Assembly (NCBI GenBank): GCA_020846975.1
Contig: JADLCX010000093.1
Location: 1 to 64,000 of the forward strand
Length of the DNA stretch: 64,000 nt
DNA from: Phycisphaerales bacterium
GTDB lineage: Bacteria > Planctomycetota > Phycisphaerae > Phycisphaerales > UBA1924
Direction of reading: 5' to 3'
Below are positions 23,782 to 31,729 of the stretch, in pieces (the first letter of the stretch is position 1; every line of letters begins with the position of its first letter). Position numbers and translations under genes: made by a program. Under the pieces are notes generated by a model that saw only the letters and a list, made by a program, of their open reading frames with translations, was not told the DNA's origin and did no database searches.

Positions 23782-23888
23782 CGGTTGTGGGCGGTGCGAG
23801 CGGCGCGATATCAGACAAGCGAGCGGGTTCGCTCCCAGTGGTGAGCTAAGATCCGTATCCGTTGAACCCACTTCCCCGGAGATTCGCA

Positions 23889-24650
23889 ATGGCATGCGGT
23901 CACTGCTCGTGCGGCCACAATCATGACCAGAATCCTCATAGGTCCAGGAGCCCTTTCGGCGTGATCGTCGGTGGAGTGCTGCTCGGACTCGCCGTGCTCG
24001 TGGGTGCGGCCGTGGCGTTTCAGCCCGGCGACAAGCAGGCGCCGAAGCCGACCCCCGCAGCATCGCCGGCCAAGGGCGTGCAGCCGGCGCCAGCGCCCGC
24101 CACGACCGACAAGCCCACCGACTCGAAGCAGCCGGCGAAGGATCCCGCCCCCGCGCCCTCCAAGTACGTGCTCGATTACACGGTGAAGAGGATCGACGGC
24201 GTCGAGCAGAAACTGGGGGACTACAAGGGCAAGGTGGTGCTGATCGTCAACGTCGCGAGCAAGTGCGGCAACACCAAGCAGTACGCCGGGTTGGAGAAGC
24301 TCTACCAGGAGAAGAAGGATGCCGGGCTGGTCATCCTCGGCTTCCCCGCCAACAACTTCGGAGGGCAGGAGCCCGGCACCAATAGAGAGATATCGGAGTT
24401 CTGCTCCAGCAAGTTCTCGGTCACGTTTCCGATGTTCGAGAAGATCAGCGTCAAGGGTGATGATGCCCACGCGCTCTACAAGCAACTCGCGGCCCAGCCC
24501 GAGGCCGTCGGTGGCGAGCCCGACTGGAACTTCGCGAAGTACCTGGTCGACCGCGACGGCAACGCCGTCGCGCACTACAAAGCCAAGACCAAGCCCGACG
24601 ATGCCGAGCTCGTGAAGAAGATCGACGAACTGCTCGCCGCGAAGAAGTGA
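23889..24650 (+). CDS. Membrane-anchored glutathione peroxidase family protein
   Basis: 253 aa from the ATG at 23889, which has GGAG 7 nt upstream. The first 16 residues (ACGHCSCGHNHDQNPH) are rich in Cys and His. A membrane helix follows (FGVIVGGVLLGLAVLVGAAVAF), then a Pro/Ala/Lys linker, then the peroxidase domain from about residue 90. Catalytic residues are Cys in NVASKCGNTKQY, Gln in GFPANNFGGQEPG and Trp in PDWNFAKYLVDRDG. It is therefore a Cys-type, probably thioredoxin-linked peroxidase reducing peroxides at the membrane. The Cys/His head would lie on the cytoplasmic side if the helix inserts N-in. It converges on the metal-repressor gene. Confidence 0.88.
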   Translation: MACGHCSCGHNHDQNPHRSRSPFGVIVGGVLLGLAVLVGAAVAFQPGDKQAPKPTPAASPAKGVQPAPAPATTDKPTDSKQPAKDPAPAPSKYVLDYTVKRIDGVEQKLGDYKGKVVLIVNVASKCGNTKQYAGLEKLYQEKKDAGLVILGFPANNFGGQEPGTNREISEFCSSKFSVTFPMFEKISVKGDDAHALYKQLAAQPEAVGGEPDWNFAKYLVDRDGNAVAHYKAKTKPDDAELVKKIDELLAAKK

Positions 24651-24664
24651 TTCGACATCCGCGA

Positions 24665-25342
24665 TCAGCCGTGACGCTTCGGCTGGACCTGCACCAGCAC
24701 GCGCCGCGCCGCGGCCTCGCTCAACGACACCCCGCTTCCCTTCGCGGACTTGACGCTGATCGTTCCCGCTCCCGGTTCTACCGACTCGACCGTCAGTTCA
24801 GAGCCGATCTCCAGGCCGTGTCGGCGGAGAAAGTTGAGCGCATCCTCGCGCTGGTCCATCGCCCGGACGAGCCTGCACGCGGAGCCGGGGGCGCACGCCG
24901 CCAACGGCACGGAAGCCGGTTCGGCGACGGTGCCGTCGGCGTGCGGGATCGGGTCTCCGTGGGGATCGGAAGCGGGGTGGCCGAGGTGGCGATCCAGAGC
25001 CTCCAGGACCCGTGGTGAGATGGCGTGCTCAAGCCGCTCGGCCTCGTCGTGTACGACGGACCAGTCGAGGTTCAAGGTGTGAACGAGAAATGTTTCGATG
25101 AGCCGGTGCCGCCGCAGGATGTCGAGCGCGGCACGCGATCCCTTCGAGGTCAGCCGGACGCCGCCGAAGCGCTCATACCGGGCCAACTTGGCCGCGGCAA
25201 GCTTCTTGACCATGCTCGTCGCCGTGCCGGTGGTGACCCCGACAACCGCGGCGATCCGTGACATCGCGGCCTCGCCCGCGGGTGATTCGCCGCTGAGGGT
25301 GTAGATCGCCTTGAGGTAGTTCTCGACGGTTTCGGTGGCCAT
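24665..25342 (-). CDS. DtxR/MntR-family metal-dependent transcriptional repressor
   Basis: 225 aa from the ATG at 25342. The start TETVENYLKAIYTLSGES is the classical first helix of the family. A winged helix follows (MSRIAAVVGVTTGTATSMVKKLAAAKLARYERFGGVRLTSKG), then the metal-binding/dimerisation domain (RRHRLIETFLVHTLNLDWSVVHDEAERLEHAISPRVLEAL) and a C-terminal SH3-like FeoA domain (GSELTVESVEPGAGTISVK). With Mn2+ or Fe2+ it should bind palindromic operators. It is transcribed away from the barrel and ABC genes, whose promoters carry matching palindromes, so it is the likely repressor of this locus. Whether it senses Mn or Fe cannot be told. Confidence 0.9.
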   Translation of the reverse strand: MATETVENYLKAIYTLSGESPAGEAAMSRIAAVVGVTTGTATSMVKKLAAAKLARYERFGGVRLTSKGSRAALDILRRHRLIETFLVHTLNLDWSVVHDEAERLEHAISPRVLEALDRHLGHPASDPHGDPIPHADGTVAEPASVPLAACAPGSACRLVRAMDQREDALNFLRRHGLEIGSELTVESVEPGAGTISVKSAKGSGVSLSEAAARRVLVQVQPKRHG

Positions 25343-25410
25343 CTGGTGCAGAAAGAGGGGGCGAGAGCGGCGGGATGATACTACGCCACTCACGCAAGCA
25401 CGGTGCGACC

Positions 25411-25438
25411 TTGATCGCGATAAATCAAAGCATATAGT
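25411..25438 (+). promoter_or_regulatory. Sigma-70-type promoter for the barrel gene
   Basis: TTGATC (25411-25416) and TATAGT (25433-25438) separated by 16 nt, 40 nt ahead of the start codon. The same hexamers with the same spacing occur ahead of the binding-protein gene. The -10 hexamer runs into the metal-repressor palindrome. Confidence 0.65.
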
Positions 25439-25455
25439 TTGAGTAGTCAAACTAT
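25434..25455. promoter_or_regulatory. Metal-repressor operator, perfect inverted repeat
   Basis: ATAGTTTGA-N4-TCAAACTAT is a perfect 9-bp inverted repeat overlapping the -10 element of the barrel gene, in the intergenic region shared with the divergent DtxR-family gene. Its shape and length fit MntR/DtxR-type operators. A site matching in most positions precedes the ABC operon. Confidence 0.75.
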
Positions 25456-25478
25456 CAGATTGCAGAGAAGGAGCGGGT

Positions 25479-26369
25479 ATGTCCAACACGGCGTGCCGGT
25501 CAGGTCTCAAGGCGTCCGTGGCGATCGGCGCGGCGGTTCACGCGTGCACGGCATCATCCGGGCAACCGGTGGGGGAGCCGGCGATCGACAAGTCGATCTA
25601 CCACCTTTTCAATCCGACACCGCGTGGATTGCTGCGAGACCTGGGCACGGATCGGCCGGACATGACCGAGAGCCCGTACACGGTGGATGCGGGGCGGTTT
25701 CAGATCGAGCTGTCGTTTGCCGACTTCACCTACGATCGTGAGAACGCGGAGTCGCAGACAGTGCGGGGACTCTCGGCCGCGCCGATGCTGTTGAAAGTCG
25801 GGCTGCTGAACAATGTCGATCTGCAGCTCGGGCTCGATCCGTACACGGCCGAGAAGACGACGGATCGATTGACGGACACCTCGATGACGATTGATGGGTT
25901 TGGTGACACGGTCGTTCGCGTGAAGGTGAATCTGTGGGGCAACGACGCGGGCGAGACGGCGTTCGCGTTGATGCCCTTCGTGAAGTATCCCACGGCGGAG
26001 GGCGGGTTGGGGAACGACGAGGTCGAGTGGGGCGTGATCGCGCCGCTGGCGATATCGCTGCCGGAGGGGTTCAGCCTTGGGCTCATGGTCGAGATCGACA
26101 TCAATCGGTCGGCCAAGAACGACCGGGACGTGGTGGACATCGTGCACACGGCGACGGTGTCGCGGTCGCTGTACGAGGAGCTTGGCGGGTTTGTCGAGTA
26201 CGCCGGGTTCGCCGGGATCGACAACGATGACGTCTACAGGGGCTGCTTCAACACGGGGCTGACGTACGGAGTGACGTCGGATGTTCAGCTCGACGGCGGG
26301 ATTCGCGTGGGGGTGACGGACGCGGCGGAGGACTTCGGGCTGTTCGCGGGTCTGTCGGTGCGGTTCTAG
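25479..26369 (+). CDS. Outer-membrane beta-barrel-like protein in the metal regulon
   Basis: 296 aa; the ATG at 25479 follows AAGGAGCGGGT. A short, atypical signal region is followed by GTDRPDMTESPYTVDAGRFQIE and amphipathic strands throughout, ending in FGLFAGLSVRF with the C-terminal Phe typical of outer-membrane barrels. It resembles the MetA-pathway-of-phenol-degradation (transporter-like) family. Its promoter overlaps a perfect metal-repressor palindrome, and it lies directly ahead of the metal ABC operon (84 nt to the next start). A role in bringing metal across the outer membrane is an inference from regulation and position, not from the family. Confidence 0.75.
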   Translation: MSNTACRSGLKASVAIGAAVHACTASSGQPVGEPAIDKSIYHLFNPTPRGLLRDLGTDRPDMTESPYTVDAGRFQIELSFADFTYDRENAESQTVRGLSAAPMLLKVGLLNNVDLQLGLDPYTAEKTTDRLTDTSMTIDGFGDTVVRVKVNLWGNDAGETAFALMPFVKYPTAEGGLGNDEVEWGVIAPLAISLPEGFSLGLMVEIDINRSAKNDRDVVDIVHTATVSRSLYEELGGFVEYAGFAGIDNDDVYRGCFNTGLTYGVTSDVQLDGGIRVGVTDAAEDFGLFAGLSVRF

Positions 26370-26394
26370 GCTCGATCGCGAGGGGCCTGAACGC

Positions 26395-26422
26395 TTGATC
26401 GCTATCGCACAAAGTGTATAGT
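26395..26422 (+). promoter_or_regulatory. Sigma-70-type promoter for the metal ABC operon
   Basis: TTGATC (26395-26400), 16-nt spacer and TATAGT (26417-26422), identical in hexamers and spacing to the promoter at 25411. The 48 nt from each -35 onward match at 36 positions by my count. Confidence 0.65.
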
Positions 26423-26439
26423 TGGAGGAATCAAACTTG
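26418..26439. promoter_or_regulatory. Metal-repressor operator, second copy
   Basis: ATAGTTGGA-N4-TCAAACTTG, an imperfect version of the palindrome at 25434-25455. The left arm differs at one and the right arm at two positions. It overlaps the -10 element of the ABC operon in the same register as the first copy. Confidence 0.7.
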
Positions 26440-26453
26440 CAGGAGGTGCCTCG

Positions 26454-27521
26454 ATGACGCGATCGATGGGACGGCCCCTTAGCGCCGGAACGCTGGTGCT
26501 GGCGGTGCTCGCGTTTGTCGGTGCGGCGGTGCTCGGTCCGACGGGCTGTGGAGAGTCGCCCCGCCGAAGGTCGGCGGCCACGGGTAACGCTACCCCGATC
26601 AAGGTTGTCGCCACGATCGGGATGATCGCCGATGTCGCCCGTGAGTTGTCGCGAGGACGGGGCGTCGCCGTGCGGGGCGTGGGGCTCATGGGTGAGGGCG
26701 TCGATCCACACCTGTACAAGGCCTCGCCCGGCGATGTGCGGGCGATGTCGGATGCGGACCTTGTCCTGTACAACGGGCTGCATCTCGAGGGCCGCATGGC
26801 CGACGTGATCGTGCGCATGGCCGGATCGCGCTCGGTCGTGCGTGTGACCGAGACCATCCCCGAGAACCTGCTTCGCGAACCGCCCGAGTTCGAGGGGCAC
26901 CCCGACCCGCACGTGTGGTTCGATGTGACCCTGTGGAGCAAGGCGGCCGAGCGCATCCGCGATGCGCTGATCGAGAAGGATCCGGGTGCGAGGGAGGCGT
27001 ACAACACCGCCGCCGCTGACTACCTGGGCACCTTGAAGGAACTCAACCGATACGCGTTGGCGACCATCGCGACAATCCCTGAGAACCAGCGGATTCTCGT
27101 CACGGCCCATGACGCGTTCGGGTACTTCGGTCGCGCGTATGGGATCGAGGTCATGGCGATCCAGGGAATCAGCACCGACAGCGAGGCCAGCCTGCGGCAG
27201 ATCAACGGGCTGGTGTCCACGCTGAGCGAGCGGAGGGTTCCCGCCGTGTTCATCGAGAGCAGTGTGCCACGAAAGACCATCGATGCGCTGATCGAAGGCT
27301 GCCGGGCCCGCGGCCACGAGGTCAAGGTTGGGGGCGAGCTTTTCAGCGATGCGATGGGGCGCGAGGGGACGGCCGAGGGAACCTACGTGGGCATGGTTCT
27401 GCACAACGTGGACACGATCGCCAAAGCCCTCGGCGGCCGAGTAGCCGATACCAAGCCGGGGCGGTTGGGGCAGCACCTGTCCCGCGTGGCCGTCCAACCG
27501 GCCGATGGCAAGGCGCACTGA
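26454..27521 (+). CDS. Metal ABC transporter substrate-binding lipoprotein (TroA/ZnuA/MntC family)
   Basis: 355 aa; the ATG at 26454 follows an AGGAGGTG. A signal with lipobox LGPTGC (Cys32) anchors it. The four expected metal ligands are in place: His86 (VDPHLYKAS), His153 (DPHVWFD), His219 ([10 protein letters not shown]) and Asp299 ([10 protein letters not shown]). His at the third position is the TroA/ZnuA pattern, whereas PsaA/MntC-type Mn proteins usually carry Glu there. So zinc, manganese or iron remain possible. It captures metal for the following ATPase and permease genes, 2 nt and then 33 nt apart. Confidence 0.93.
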
Positions 27522-27523
27522 GC

Positions 27524-28369
27524 ATGAGACGCCCGGTCGAACAGCTTGTGCAGGAGGGGGGGGCGGGCCGACTGGCCGAAGCGAGCGCACGGGCTGAACC
27601 CGCCGTGAGCGTGGAGGTCCATGATGTCACCGTCGCGTACAACCGCAAGCCGGTGCTGTGGGATGTGGATGTGTCGCTGCCCGTCGGCGAACTGATCGCG
27701 ATTGTCGGGCCGAACGGCGCCGGCAAATCCACGCTGCTGAAGGCCGCGCTCGGGCTTATCCCGCTGGCGAGCGGCCGGATCACGATCTTCGGAAGGCCCA
27801 TCCGCCAGGCGCGATCCATGGTCGGGTATGTGCCTCAGCGGGAATCGGTGGACTGGGATTTCCCCGTCAGCGTGCTGGATGTCGTGCTGATGGGCAGGTA
27901 CGGACGGTTGGGCTGGGTGCGTCGGCCGGGCCGGATCGATCGTGAGGTCGCGATGGCCTGCCTGGGCAAGGTCGGCATGACGGCGTACGCCGCGCGGCAG
28001 ATCAGCCAGCTCTCCGGCGGTCAGCAGCAGCGTGTGTTTCTGGCGCGAGCGCTCGCGCAGGATGCTTCCCTCTACTTCATGGATGAACCCTTCGCCGGTG
28101 TGGATGCCGCGACCGAGAAGGCGATCGTGGAGGTGCTCCGTCAGTTGCGTGCGGCCGGAAAAACCGTGGTCGCCGTGCACCACGACCTGCAGACGGTGCC
28201 GGAATACTTCGACCACGTCGTGCTGCTCAACATGCGCCTCATTGCCGCGGGCCCGGTGTCGAGCACGTTCACCCATGCCAACCTTCAGCGGACCTACGGC
28301 GGGCGGCTCACGCTGCTGGACGAGGCGGCGGAGTCGGTGCGACGGAACGCCACCGAGCCTCTGGTGTGA
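27524..28369 (+). CDS. Metal ABC transporter ATPase
   Basis: 281 aa. Walker [10 protein letters not shown] at residues 62-70, signature LSGGQQQRV at 163-171, Walker B LYFMDEP at 183-189, switch His in [11 protein letters not shown]. The 30-residue N-terminal extension contains an 8-G run in the DNA. The sequence between Walker A and the signature ([27 protein letters not shown]) is typical of Mn/Zn/Fe ATPases. It starts 2 nt after the binding-protein stop and is followed after 33 nt by the double permease. Confidence 0.93.
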
Positions 28370-28402: not shown

Positions 28403-30811
28403 TTGAATGACCTCTATCGCCTGTTGACGCTGCAAGATGCGAACACCCGCGTGGTGCTGCTGGGCGCCACCATGCTCGGGGTCGCCGCGGCGGTGGTGGG
28501 GTGTTTCGCGGTCCTTCGTCGGCGAGCGCTGGTCGGCGACGCCGCCGCGCACGCCGCGCTCCCCGGCGTCTGTGCGGCCTATTTCATCGTCGGTGAGCGG
28601 AGCTTCGCGGCGTTCATGGTCGGCGCCCTGGTGTTCGGGCTCCTCGCCGCCGGATTTGTGTCGATCATCAAGTCCGCGACGCGGATCAAGGAAGATGCCG
28701 CGATCGCCCTGGCCATCGGCGGGTTCTTCGGTCTGGGGATCGTGCTCTCGCGGATCATCCAGAACCAGCCCTCGGGAAACCGCGCAGGGCTCGACAGCTT
28801 CATCTTCGGCAAGGCCGCAAGCATGGTCTCGGACGATGCGGGGCTGATCGCCGCTGTAGCGGCGGTCGCGTTGGGCTGCGTGGCGATGCTCTACAAGGAG
28901 TTGAAACTCCTGTGCTTCGACCGCGATTTCGCCTCCGGTCAGGGTTGGCCGACACTGCTGCTCGATCTGATCCTGATGGCGCTGGTGTGCATCTGCACGG
29001 TCGCGGGCCTGCCCGCCGTCGGTGTGGTCCTCATGGTGGCTCTGCTGGTCATTCCCGCAGCGGCGGCGAGATTCTGGACCGAGCGCCTCGGCGTGATGAT
29101 CCCGGTCGCGGGGGTGTTTGGCGGCGCCGCGGGCCTGCTCGGGACGGCGATGAGCGCGACCGTGCCCGCGCCCGCGGGTTCGCTCTCGCGCGGCTGGCCA
29201 ACGGGGCCGATGATCGTGCTGGTCGCGGCGGCGGTGTTCGTGGTGTCGTTTCTTGCCGCTCCGCGGCGGGGTCTGATCGCCGCGGTCGTTCGCCATATGG
29301 AAATGCGGCGGCGTGTGGCGATGCAGCACCTCCTGCGGGATGCCTACGAACTGCTCGAGCCGACGGGTGATCTGTTCGGCAGGTGGCATCCGGCACGCCT
29401 CGCCCACGCAGCGACGACATCGGCACGCACCCTTGATCGAGCCAGGCGGCGCGGTCTGGTCGTGGCCTCGGGCGACGGATTCACGCTCACGGAGCGCGGG
29501 CAGGTCCAGGCTTGTCGAGTCGTGCGAACGCACCGCCTCTGGGAACTGTACATGATCGAACAGGCGCAGATCGCCTCCGATCACGTCGATCGGGATGCGG
29601 ACGACATCGAGCATCTGCTTCCCAAGGGCGTGGTCGACGAGCTCGAGGCCAGGCTCGCCGGCCAGCGGCGCCTGCCCACCCTCGCCGCGGGTGGGATCTC
29701 GGTGCCCGAGTCCCCCCACGCGTTGGGCGGCTCCGTCGCCGCGGCCAAGCGTGTCACGGTGATTCTGCTCGCGGCCATGGTTGTATTCTCGGAGACGCCC
29801 GCGCGCGCGGACGGACCGCGCCGGGGATCACCCGTGACGGAGTTTGCCCCGGTCGACGTCGATAGCCCAGCGAGGGCCATTTGCCATATCGGGTCCTATC
29901 CCGTCCGTGCCGACGATCTGTGGACGATCGCGACGGCGGTGTGCTGCTCCGTTGCGTGCGGAACAGTGGGGTGCTTCCTGGTGCTCCGTCGCATGTCGCT
30001 CCTTGGAGACGCGATCTCCCATGCGATCCTTCCGGGTCTTGCGCTCGCGTTCATCACGACCGGGAGTCGCGATCCCCCGGCGATGCTGGCTGGCGCGCTG
30101 GCGATCGGCATTGTCACCGCGCTGCTATCGTCCGCCCTCAGCCGTCGCGGCCGCGTTACCGAGGATGCCGCGATGGGCGTTGTCTTCACGACGCTGTTCG
30201 CGCTCGGTGTGCTGCTGATCACGATGGCCGCCGGCAGCATCGATCTTGACCCCGGCTGCGTGCTCTACGGGCTGATCGAGTTCGTACCGTTCGATACGGT
30301 CCGCACAGCCGGGATGGCCCTGCCGCGAGCGTTCGTGTGGCTCTCGATCGTGATGGTGATCAACGTGACGCTGATTGCCCTGTTCTTCAAGGAACTGCGG
30401 ATCGTCTGCTTCGACCCGTTCCTTTCGACCACCATGGGGATCAGCGCCGTCGTGGTCCACTACGGCCTGCTCACCTGCGTCGCGGCCACGTGTGTCGCGT
30501 CCTTCGAGGCTGTGGGGTCAATCCTTGTGGTGGCGATGCTCGTCGCGCCCGGCGCGACCGCCCAGCTGCTCACCGACCGGCTCTCGGGGATGGTCTGGTG
30601 GGCGGCCGCGGTCGCCGCGGCGTGCGCGATCCTGGGCTACGCACTGGCGGTCTGGCTCAACACATCGGTGGCCGGGATGATCGCGACGGTCGCGCTGGCT
30701 GTGTTCATGCTCGCCGTGGTCTTCTCGCCACGGCATGGCGTGATCGCGGACCGCCTTCGCAGAAGGCGGCTCACCGATCCCTCCGGCTTCGTGGCCTCCG
30801 AGGTTGGGTAG
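28403..30811 (+). CDS. Double metal ABC permease with an internal DtxR-like regulatory domain
   Basis: 802 aa from a TTG at 28403, one continuous frame. Residues 1-295 are an ABC-3 permease (RRALVGDAAAHAALPG, CFDRDFASGQG). Residues about 296-430 form a DtxR-like winged helix and metal-binding part, with THRLWELYMIEQ and HVDRDADDIEHLLPKGV. His377, Glu381, His394, Glu403 and His404 fall where MntR/DtxR metal ligands are found. A hydrophobic segment (451-465) leads to a second ABC-3 permease at about 500-790 (RRMSLLGDAISHAILPG, CFDPFLSTTMG). The family usually has separate permease subunits; here the heterodimer appears fused around a metal-sensing module. Confidence 0.9.
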   Translation: MNDLYRLLTLQDANTRVVLLGATMLGVAAAVVGCFAVLRRRALVGDAAAHAALPGVCAAYFIVGERSFAAFMVGALVFGLLAAGFVSIIKSATRIKEDAAIALAIGGFFGLGIVLSRIIQNQPSGNRAGLDSFIFGKAASMVSDDAGLIAAVAAVALGCVAMLYKELKLLCFDRDFASGQGWPTLLLDLILMALVCICTVAGLPAVGVVLMVALLVIPAAAARFWTERLGVMIPVAGVFGGAAGLLGTAMSATVPAPAGSLSRGWPTGPMIVLVAAAVFVVSFLAAPRRGLIAAVVRHMEMRRRVAMQHLLRDAYELLEPTGDLFGRWHPARLAHAATTSARTLDRARRRGLVVASGDGFTLTERGQVQACRVVRTHRLWELYMIEQAQIASDHVDRDADDIEHLLPKGVVDELEARLAGQRRLPTLAAGGISVPESPHALGGSVAAAKRVTVILLAAMVVFSETPARADGPRRGSPVTEFAPVDVDSPARAICHIGSYPVRADDLWTIATAVCCSVACGTVGCFLVLRRMSLLGDAISHAILPGLALAFITTGSRDPPAMLAGALAIGIVTALLSSALSRRGRVTEDAAMGVVFTTLFALGVLLITMAAGSIDLDPGCVLYGLIEFVPFDTVRTAGMALPRAFVWLSIVMVINVTLIALFFKELRIVCFDPFLSTTMGISAVVVHYGLLTCVAATCVASFEAVGSILVVAMLVAPGATAQLLTDRLSGMVWWAAAVAAACAILGYALAVWLNTSVAGMIATVALAVFMLAVVFSPRHGVIADRLRRRRLTDPSGFVASEVG

Positions 30812-30879: not shown

Positions 30880-31497
30880 TCAGAGTGTCATCTCGCACGC
30901 TGACGATCCGGCGTCAACGATCAGCGAAGAAGTAACAGGGATGGCCCGGGTGATGTTGAAGAAGTTGGGGCTGGTGGCCTTCACGATGTTGTGCAACTCG
31001 GCGAAGCGCTCCGGAGTGGCATCGCCCGCGATCCGGACCTCCTGCCGCAGCGACGGATACCCGGCCGGGACATCGGGGCTGATCCCGAGGAAGCCGCGGA
31101 GATCGATGTCACCGGTCGTGCAGACCTCCAGGCTCGTCAGCCGGATGCCCATGAGCGCGGCAACAGCCGTATAGCCGACCATCATGCAGGCATTGAGCCC
31201 GGCGAGCAGACACTCCTGCGGGTTGGCGAACTGGTTGGTCCCGCAGAGCTCGTGAGGCTCGTCGGTGCTGATCGTGAACTTGCGTTCGATGTTGGCGCCG
31301 GCGATCCGGCAGGCGTCAACGTGGTGGTCGGCGCGGGTTCCGCCCTTCCAGCGGCTGTTGATGGTCCACGTGGTGGCGCCTTCACGGGGGTCCGCGGAGA
31401 TGGCGGCGATGCAATCGCGGAGATCCGCGGTATCGATGCCGTTGATCGTGGTTGAGGCGGCGGGCGTGGAACGCGTCGGACTCTTGATTGCGGTCAT
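30880..31497 (-). CDS. OsmC/Ohr family protein
   Basis: 205 aa from the ATG at 31497, with GGAGC 6 nt upstream; the frame extends 43 codons further but into repeated low-quality sequence. The core contains WTINSRWKGG, ANPQECLLAGLNACMMVGYTAVAALMG, with the conserved Glu and Cys of the OsmC peroxidatic site, and a C-terminal part with VKATSPNFFNITRAIPV. Classic OsmC/Ohr enzymes reduce organic hydroperoxides with two cysteines. Here the second active-site Cys is plausibly the one in LNACMM or VCTTGDI, so catalysis is uncertain. It converges on the metal permease gene. Confidence 0.85.
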   Translation of the reverse strand: MTAIKSPTRSTPAASTTINGIDTADLRDCIAAISADPREGATTWTINSRWKGGTRADHHVDACRIAGANIERKFTISTDEPHELCGTNQFANPQECLLAGLNACMMVGYTAVAALMGIRLTSLEVCTTGDIDLRGFLGISPDVPAGYPSLRQEVRIAGDATPERFAELHNIVKATSPNFFNITRAIPVTSSLIVDAGSSACEMTL

Positions 31498-31583
31498 GGG
31501 GTTGCTCCGGAGGTCGAAGGGTGCGCCGCGAGCCGCAGTGGCCCGCGCATGGAGCAACAATCGGCGCTCCGATCGGGCGTGTG

Positions 31584-31624
31584 GGTGTACTCGAGGTCCA
31601 CCCGCGGTGTACTCGAGGTCCACC
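31584..31624. repeat. Two 19-bp direct repeats, 22-bp period
   Basis: GGTGTACTCGAGGTCCACC occurs at 31584-31602 and again at 31606-31624, exact copies separated by 3 nt. They lie in the gap upstream of the OsmC-like gene (start at 31497) and beyond the purD stop. Each copy is partly palindromic (GGTGTACTCGAGGTCCACC contains CTCGAG). Confidence 0.75.
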
Positions 31625-31729
31625 ACAGGGCTCGGCGTTTGTTGGGGATCGTCGGGGTGCGGGGGGTGGCGGCATGGTGCCGCGAGGATGCACCCTCAGC
31701 GGGCGAACTCGATATCTCGGATCGTGCGG

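Follow-up and report, generated by a model that had tools for sequence, protein, structure and literature searches.

The question raised by this locus is why an outer-membrane barrel gene and an adjacent ABC importer operon each follow a promoter of closely similar sequence overlapped by a palindrome, and which protein reads these palindromes. The locus lies in a stretch of 64,000 nucleotides from a Phycisphaerales bacterium, the whole of which is called the window here. The explanation that, taken as a whole, we consider very probable is that a repressor of the TroR/MntR kind would control both promoters, with the first operator (O1) ancestral and the second promoter and operator (P2/O2) a local copy.

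The locus and its genes

The features of the locus, in the order of their coordinates, are the following.

24665..25342, minus strand: DtxR-family metalloregulator of 225 aa, predicted repressor, MntR/TroR/DR2539-like, with a C-terminal FeoA/SH3-like domain
25411..25438, plus strand: promoter P1, with -35 TTGATC at 25411-25416, a 16-bp spacer and -10 TATAGT at 25433-25438
25434..25455, no strand: operator O1, ATAGTTTGA-gtag-TCAAACTAT, a perfect 9+9 palindrome with the core TTTGA-N4-TCAAA
25479..26369, plus strand: outer-membrane beta-barrel (PF13557), predicted channel (Pfam, AF2, Foldseek)
26395..26422, plus strand: promoter P2, with -35 TTGATC at 26395-26400, a 16-bp spacer and -10 TATAGT at 26417-26422
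26418..26439, no strand: operator O2, a degenerate copy, ATAGTTGGA-ggaa-TCAAACTTG, with one intact half-site
26454..27521, plus strand: periplasmic or lipoprotein metal-binding substrate-binding protein (SBP) of a Mn/Zn ABC transporter, ZnuA/TroA family (PF01297, E=8e-73)
27524..28369, plus strand: ABC transporter ATPase, Mn/Fe type by its best NCBIfam matches
28403..30811, plus strand: fused permease, DtxR-like domain and permease in one 802-aa frame, with two ABC-3 stretches and Fe_dep_repr_C at residues 363-419

The regulator has the Pfam domains PF01325 (HTH) and PF02742 (metal binding and dimerisation) above the cut-off, in addition to PF04023 (FeoA), and the DtxR-numbered ligands H79, E83, H98, E102, E105 and H106 are unchanged across 16 orthologues, as is expected of a member of the DtxR/MntR family. 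The solved structures nearest to it are 5zr4 and 8pvt, the latter of which we take to be DR2539 of Deinococcus. A Bacillus-type MntR with a Mn-selective binuclear site was rejected, as the MntR equivalog models scored below their cut-off and the window regulator has Asn8 and Lys11 where Bacillus MntR has the Mn-selective ligands Asp8 and Glu11; Lys11 is invariant in the orthologues. These replacements suggest that the regulator may respond to Fe as well. DR2539, the MntR of Deinococcus radiodurans, and the 5zr4-type regulators are its closest solved relatives in sequence, and it shares with DR2539 the Lys replacing MntR Glu11, His98 and the C-terminal domain (PMC3327659). DR2539 responds to both Mn and Fe (PMC3327659); it governs MntH via an inverted repeat, and its likeness to the window regulator is one of protein sequence.

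The AlphaFold2 model of the barrel (pLDDT 87.7) was placed by Foldseek with FapF (5o67) and the COG4313 channel 4rl8, and the protein is predicted to be a FapF/COG4313-like outer-membrane channel. It ends in Arg-Phe, which we take to resemble an outer-membrane insertion signal. By NCBIfam, the ATPase comes closest to the Mn/Fe ATPase PRK15056 and to MntA of Deinococcus, scoring below the equivalog cut-off of each. In several relatives, e.g., L038, L040, and L044, the second permease is followed by another DtxR-like domain. The metal locus is flanked by glutathione-peroxidase-like and OsmC-like genes (window positions 23862-24650 and 30880-31626).

Identity and conservation of the operator

The palindrome had been put forward as a candidate new operator for this family member. 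Its core, TTTGA-N4-TCAAA, turned out to be that of the published TroR operator (PMC2628430), so a new operator class is rejected. The published oligonucleotides give the tro operators as TTTGATGCATCAAA for T. pallidum and TTTGATATATCAAA for T. denticola; in E. coli reporter strains, the T. denticola TroR represses both when Mn or Fe is present, and mutation of the T. denticola operator relieves repression (PMC2628430). As the 5-4-5 core is identical, the window operator is of the TroR kind, an assignment made by operator core and promoter placement. The core stands at the promoter of a TroABCD-type ABC operon, where both predicted -10 hexamers are overlapped; an operator ahead of such an importer is common to the Treponema tro system, and the overlap with the promoter is found in T. 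pallidum. The SH3/FeoA-like C-terminus of the regulator is shared with T. denticola TroR. Unlike in Treponema, the regulator gene is divergent rather than inside the operon, there are two promoter-operator copies, and the system includes an outer-membrane channel gene. The occurrence of a TroR-type site across Planctomycetota and neighbouring phyla, with a channel in the regulon, appears to be new; among the matches listed in a literature search on planctomycete MntR there was no planctomycete paper on such a regulon.

The original prediction was to fall if the palindromes were not conserved in relatives, and site 1 is widely conserved. Of 125 loci with a window-type regulator gene, 45 are loci of the phylum, window included (31.5 kb), and 80 are named loci (47 kb). 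The exact core occurs beside the gene 43 times in all, 22 of these in the first set (within 350 bp) and 21 in the second (within 300 bp). The counts are not independent, because the two sets overlap by at least one genome (L016/L189) and share many related species. Eight rearranged palindromes of matched composition gave no such site in either set. The relatives with the operator beside the regulator, both metagenome-assembled genomes and isolates, belong to Planctomycetota, Verrucomicrobiota, and Acidobacteriota, and are themselves not phylogenetically independent; the core was absent from the Bacteroidota, Actinomycetota, and myxobacterial regulator loci examined. In many relatives, read in operon orientation, TTGAC(A) is followed by an AT-rich -10 continuing into the operator, an arrangement visible in, for example, G015, G321, G059, G043, G047, and G154. 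Over half of the orthologues at the phylum level and beyond, chiefly those more remote, show no exact site, nor does the close orthologue G168 (65% identity), which suggests that the position of the operator or promoter drifts. In one relative, G049, the exact core TTTGA-N4-TCAAA appears twice within a single regulator-SBP intergenic region, at a distance of 120 bp (L047:9934 and 10054).

Two modules and the probable origin of the second copy

Both promoters have the TTGATC-N16-TATAGT arrangement described before, and they are the only sigma-70-like promoters found in 25200-26700 (2 observed versus 0.2 expected). Our recount of the identity between 25411-25458 and 26395-26442 gave the same 36 of 48 positions. 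The best ungapped score is 25, whereas 1000 shuffles averaged 7.7 and never went above 14. The similarity forms a sharply bounded 49-bp block (CTTGATC...CAG), with nothing comparable in either flank. Each operator overlaps its -10 hexamer, starting at the second base. The claim of a shared palindrome in the same register stands for the register and for one half-site: O2 retains the downstream TCAAACT and has partly lost the upstream one, and with only 6 of 9 arm pairs left, "the same palindrome" overstates the likeness. The core is exact in O1 (25438-25451) and has one mismatch in O2 (26422-26435).

A genome-wide scan with the palindrome, proposed earlier as the way to define the regulon, found two matches at up to three mismatches over the 18 specified positions, both at this locus, and none with the reversed pattern as a control. 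AGTTTGA-N4-TCAAACT at up to one mismatch likewise matched only O1 and O2 in the 4.2-Mb genome, so that the detectable regulon consists of these two promoters. With up to three mismatches allowed, this pattern shows no excess over its control (19 versus 27). A large regulon is ruled out, since no further sites rise above background in the genome. With a position weight matrix built from 30 sites of relatives, O1 scores 35.4 bits and O2 22.7, the next best site in the window reaching 6.5 and the best in 4.2 Mb of simulated sequence 20.4.

Relatives in which the SBP follows the barrel and a window-type regulator is present have a single operator, which precedes the barrel. We found nothing comparable to O2 between barrel and SBP in L037, L038, L079, L080, L083, or L089, all of which have the TroR-type operator. 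These empty gaps rule out a general double-operator architecture for the TroR-type set, and by this comparison of loci the second copy is local. It is quite conceivable, albeit the less probable reading, that only O1 functions and that P2/O2 is a decaying duplicate, the ABC genes being read through from P1. The broken half-site of O2, the single operator of these relatives and a barrel-SBP gap without a terminator-like site all fit such a decay. Against it, P2/O2 has kept its -35, its -10 and an intact half-site while the flanking DNA shows no similarity, and O2 scores above everything in the simulated genome. In addition, in two loci with the other operator type described below, L084 and L086, the barrel lies between two short-MntR-like sites, of which both are weak in L086 and the downstream one is weak in L084. 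These two loci suggest that an operator flanking the barrel on each side may have arisen more than once. The stretch L086:1400-2480 holds the barrel with its weak site on each side.

It is unlikely that the two promoters evolved independently and look alike because one sigma factor and one repressor serve both. Some similarity is indeed expected when the same two proteins must bind, but spacer positions outside the -35, the -10 and the core also agree (GC-AT, CAAAG), and the observed score of 25 lies beyond every shuffle, in a shuffle model that includes no shared functional constraint. A local duplication of the module is the reading that we prefer. P2/O2 would then make transcription of the SBP-ABC genes partly independent of that of the barrel. 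As O2 is probably the weaker site, our guess is that the importer would be derepressed at a higher metal level than the channel; O2 may also be too weak to bind.

The probable reader of the operator

The divergent DtxR-family protein had been named as the likely reader, and this is supported by relatives, where the operator follows the regulator. Among genomes of the same order, we compared the 30 best SBP loci, 10 of them from genomes with the long regulator of the window type and 20 from genomes without it. The exact core lies upstream of the SBP or the barrel in 7 of the 10 and in 0 of the 20; an eighth long-regulator genome, G021, has the core with one mismatch. The chance that seven cores all fall among the ten is 120/2035800, about 6e-5, if the 30 genomes are independent; they are related, and the figure is a guide only. 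Among the 20 genomes without the long regulator, 16 have a TGTAGC-N4-GCTACA-like palindrome (up to two mismatches), which adjoins a short MntR gene in several checked cases (G012, G019, G024, and G025). Long-regulator genomes lack this palindrome, except for G015, which has both regulators. In these loci, operator type is seen to follow regulator type.

The E. coli MntR box is AACATAGC-N4-GCTATGTT. The TGTAGC-N4-GCTACA palindrome of the sister genomes resembles it and precedes the orthologous ABC operon and barrel; it is upstream of the SBP in G029, G002, G033, G024, G030, G014, G023, G016, G012, and G053 (in this order, loci L137, L142, L157, L147, L148, L149, L150, L152, L160, and L145). In several genomes the SBP gene has a short MntR gene as its neighbour. 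Such E. coli-type (short MntR) systems differ from the window in their operator, of which the window's operon has no copy, and in their shorter regulator. In G015, the TroR-type promoter-operator beside the regulator precedes a prepilin-like gene (L033:9816-10748), and the ABC operon is on another contig, under a short-MntR-type operator. Autoregulation of the regulator is not needed as the main purpose of O1, because in G058 and G021 the regulator genes are co-oriented with the operon and the site lies between the two.

The fused permease resembles Chlamydia YtgCR in joining a permease to a DtxR-like domain, and differs from it in that the domain has a permease half on either side and that a full-length regulator is encoded separately. 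That this fused domain rather than the divergent gene product reads the operator is very improbable: it matches Fe_dep_repr_C, and Chlamydia YtgR is a permease-linked DtxR-like repressor with an operator that was aligned to that of TroR (PMC6504234), but DtxR-like stretches in permease-sized frames also occur in the same-family genomes without the long regulator, whose SBP genes never follow TTTGA-N4-TCAAA (0 of 20), and in G015, whose ABC operon is at another place, the site still adjoins the long regulator.

The predicted channel gene as a probable member of the regulon

Of the 14 class-level homologues closest to the barrel, 12 have a TroR-type or short-MntR-type operator upstream: the TroR-type core, within 300 bp, in seven (L079, L080, L081, L083, L085, L089, and L092) and the short-MntR type in five (L082, L084, L086, L088, and L091, with two mismatches in L086). 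Neither type was found upstream of the other two, L087 and L090. The homologues do not all adjoin the ABC genes. This is good sequence evidence that the barrel belongs to a metal regulon whichever repressor is in charge. Given its predicted beta-barrel fold and the Mn-type operator ahead of the gene, the protein is probably a porin of the Mn regulon. By description it can be likened to MnoP of Bradyrhizobium, an outer-membrane protein required for Mn uptake under Mn scarcity (review PMC9334652); the window barrel differs in being a PF13557 protein with a FapF/COG4313-like fold.

Proposed mechanism and significance

A single metal regulon in which the barrel and the ABC genes are co-repressed, as originally predicted, is supported by the conservation of site 1 in relatives. 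From the similarity of the modules, their conservation, the operator-regulator pairing and the predicted barrel fold, all read from sequence, we infer binding, the metal, repression, the relative strengths and the direction of copying as follows. The product of the 25342 gene would be a metal-activated repressor of the TroR/MntR kind that, with Mn(II) and possibly also Fe(II), binds the TTTGA-N4-TCAAA palindromes covering the -10 of both promoters. When metal is plentiful, the channel gene and the TroABCD-type importer would both be shut off. O1 would be strong and ancestral, the operator of a single barrel-ABC (or ABC) operon. P2/O2 would have arisen locally as a copy of the 49-bp module of promoter and operator; with a damaged half-site, it would give the ABC genes a second promoter that is probably less tightly repressed.

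A wider reading joins three proposals: that Phycisphaerae have a widespread, undescribed Mn-regulon channel (PF13557, FapF/COG4313-like), that repressor and operator have been exchanged wholesale, the TroR type for the short-MntR type, and that asymmetric duplicated operators switch channel and importer at different metal levels. We put this combination forward tentatively, and doubt it slightly more than we believe it.

With the TroR-type assignment, the range of this operator widens beyond spirochaetes to take in Planctomycetota, Verrucomicrobiota, and Acidobacteriota, and its core gives a motif for annotating metal regulons in those phyla. The assignment also brings regulatory evidence to bear on what the barrel does, an uncharacterised outer-membrane protein from a family labelled "phenol degradation." The genomes compared here may be regarded as a natural series in which repressor and operator are exchanged together ahead of the same operon.
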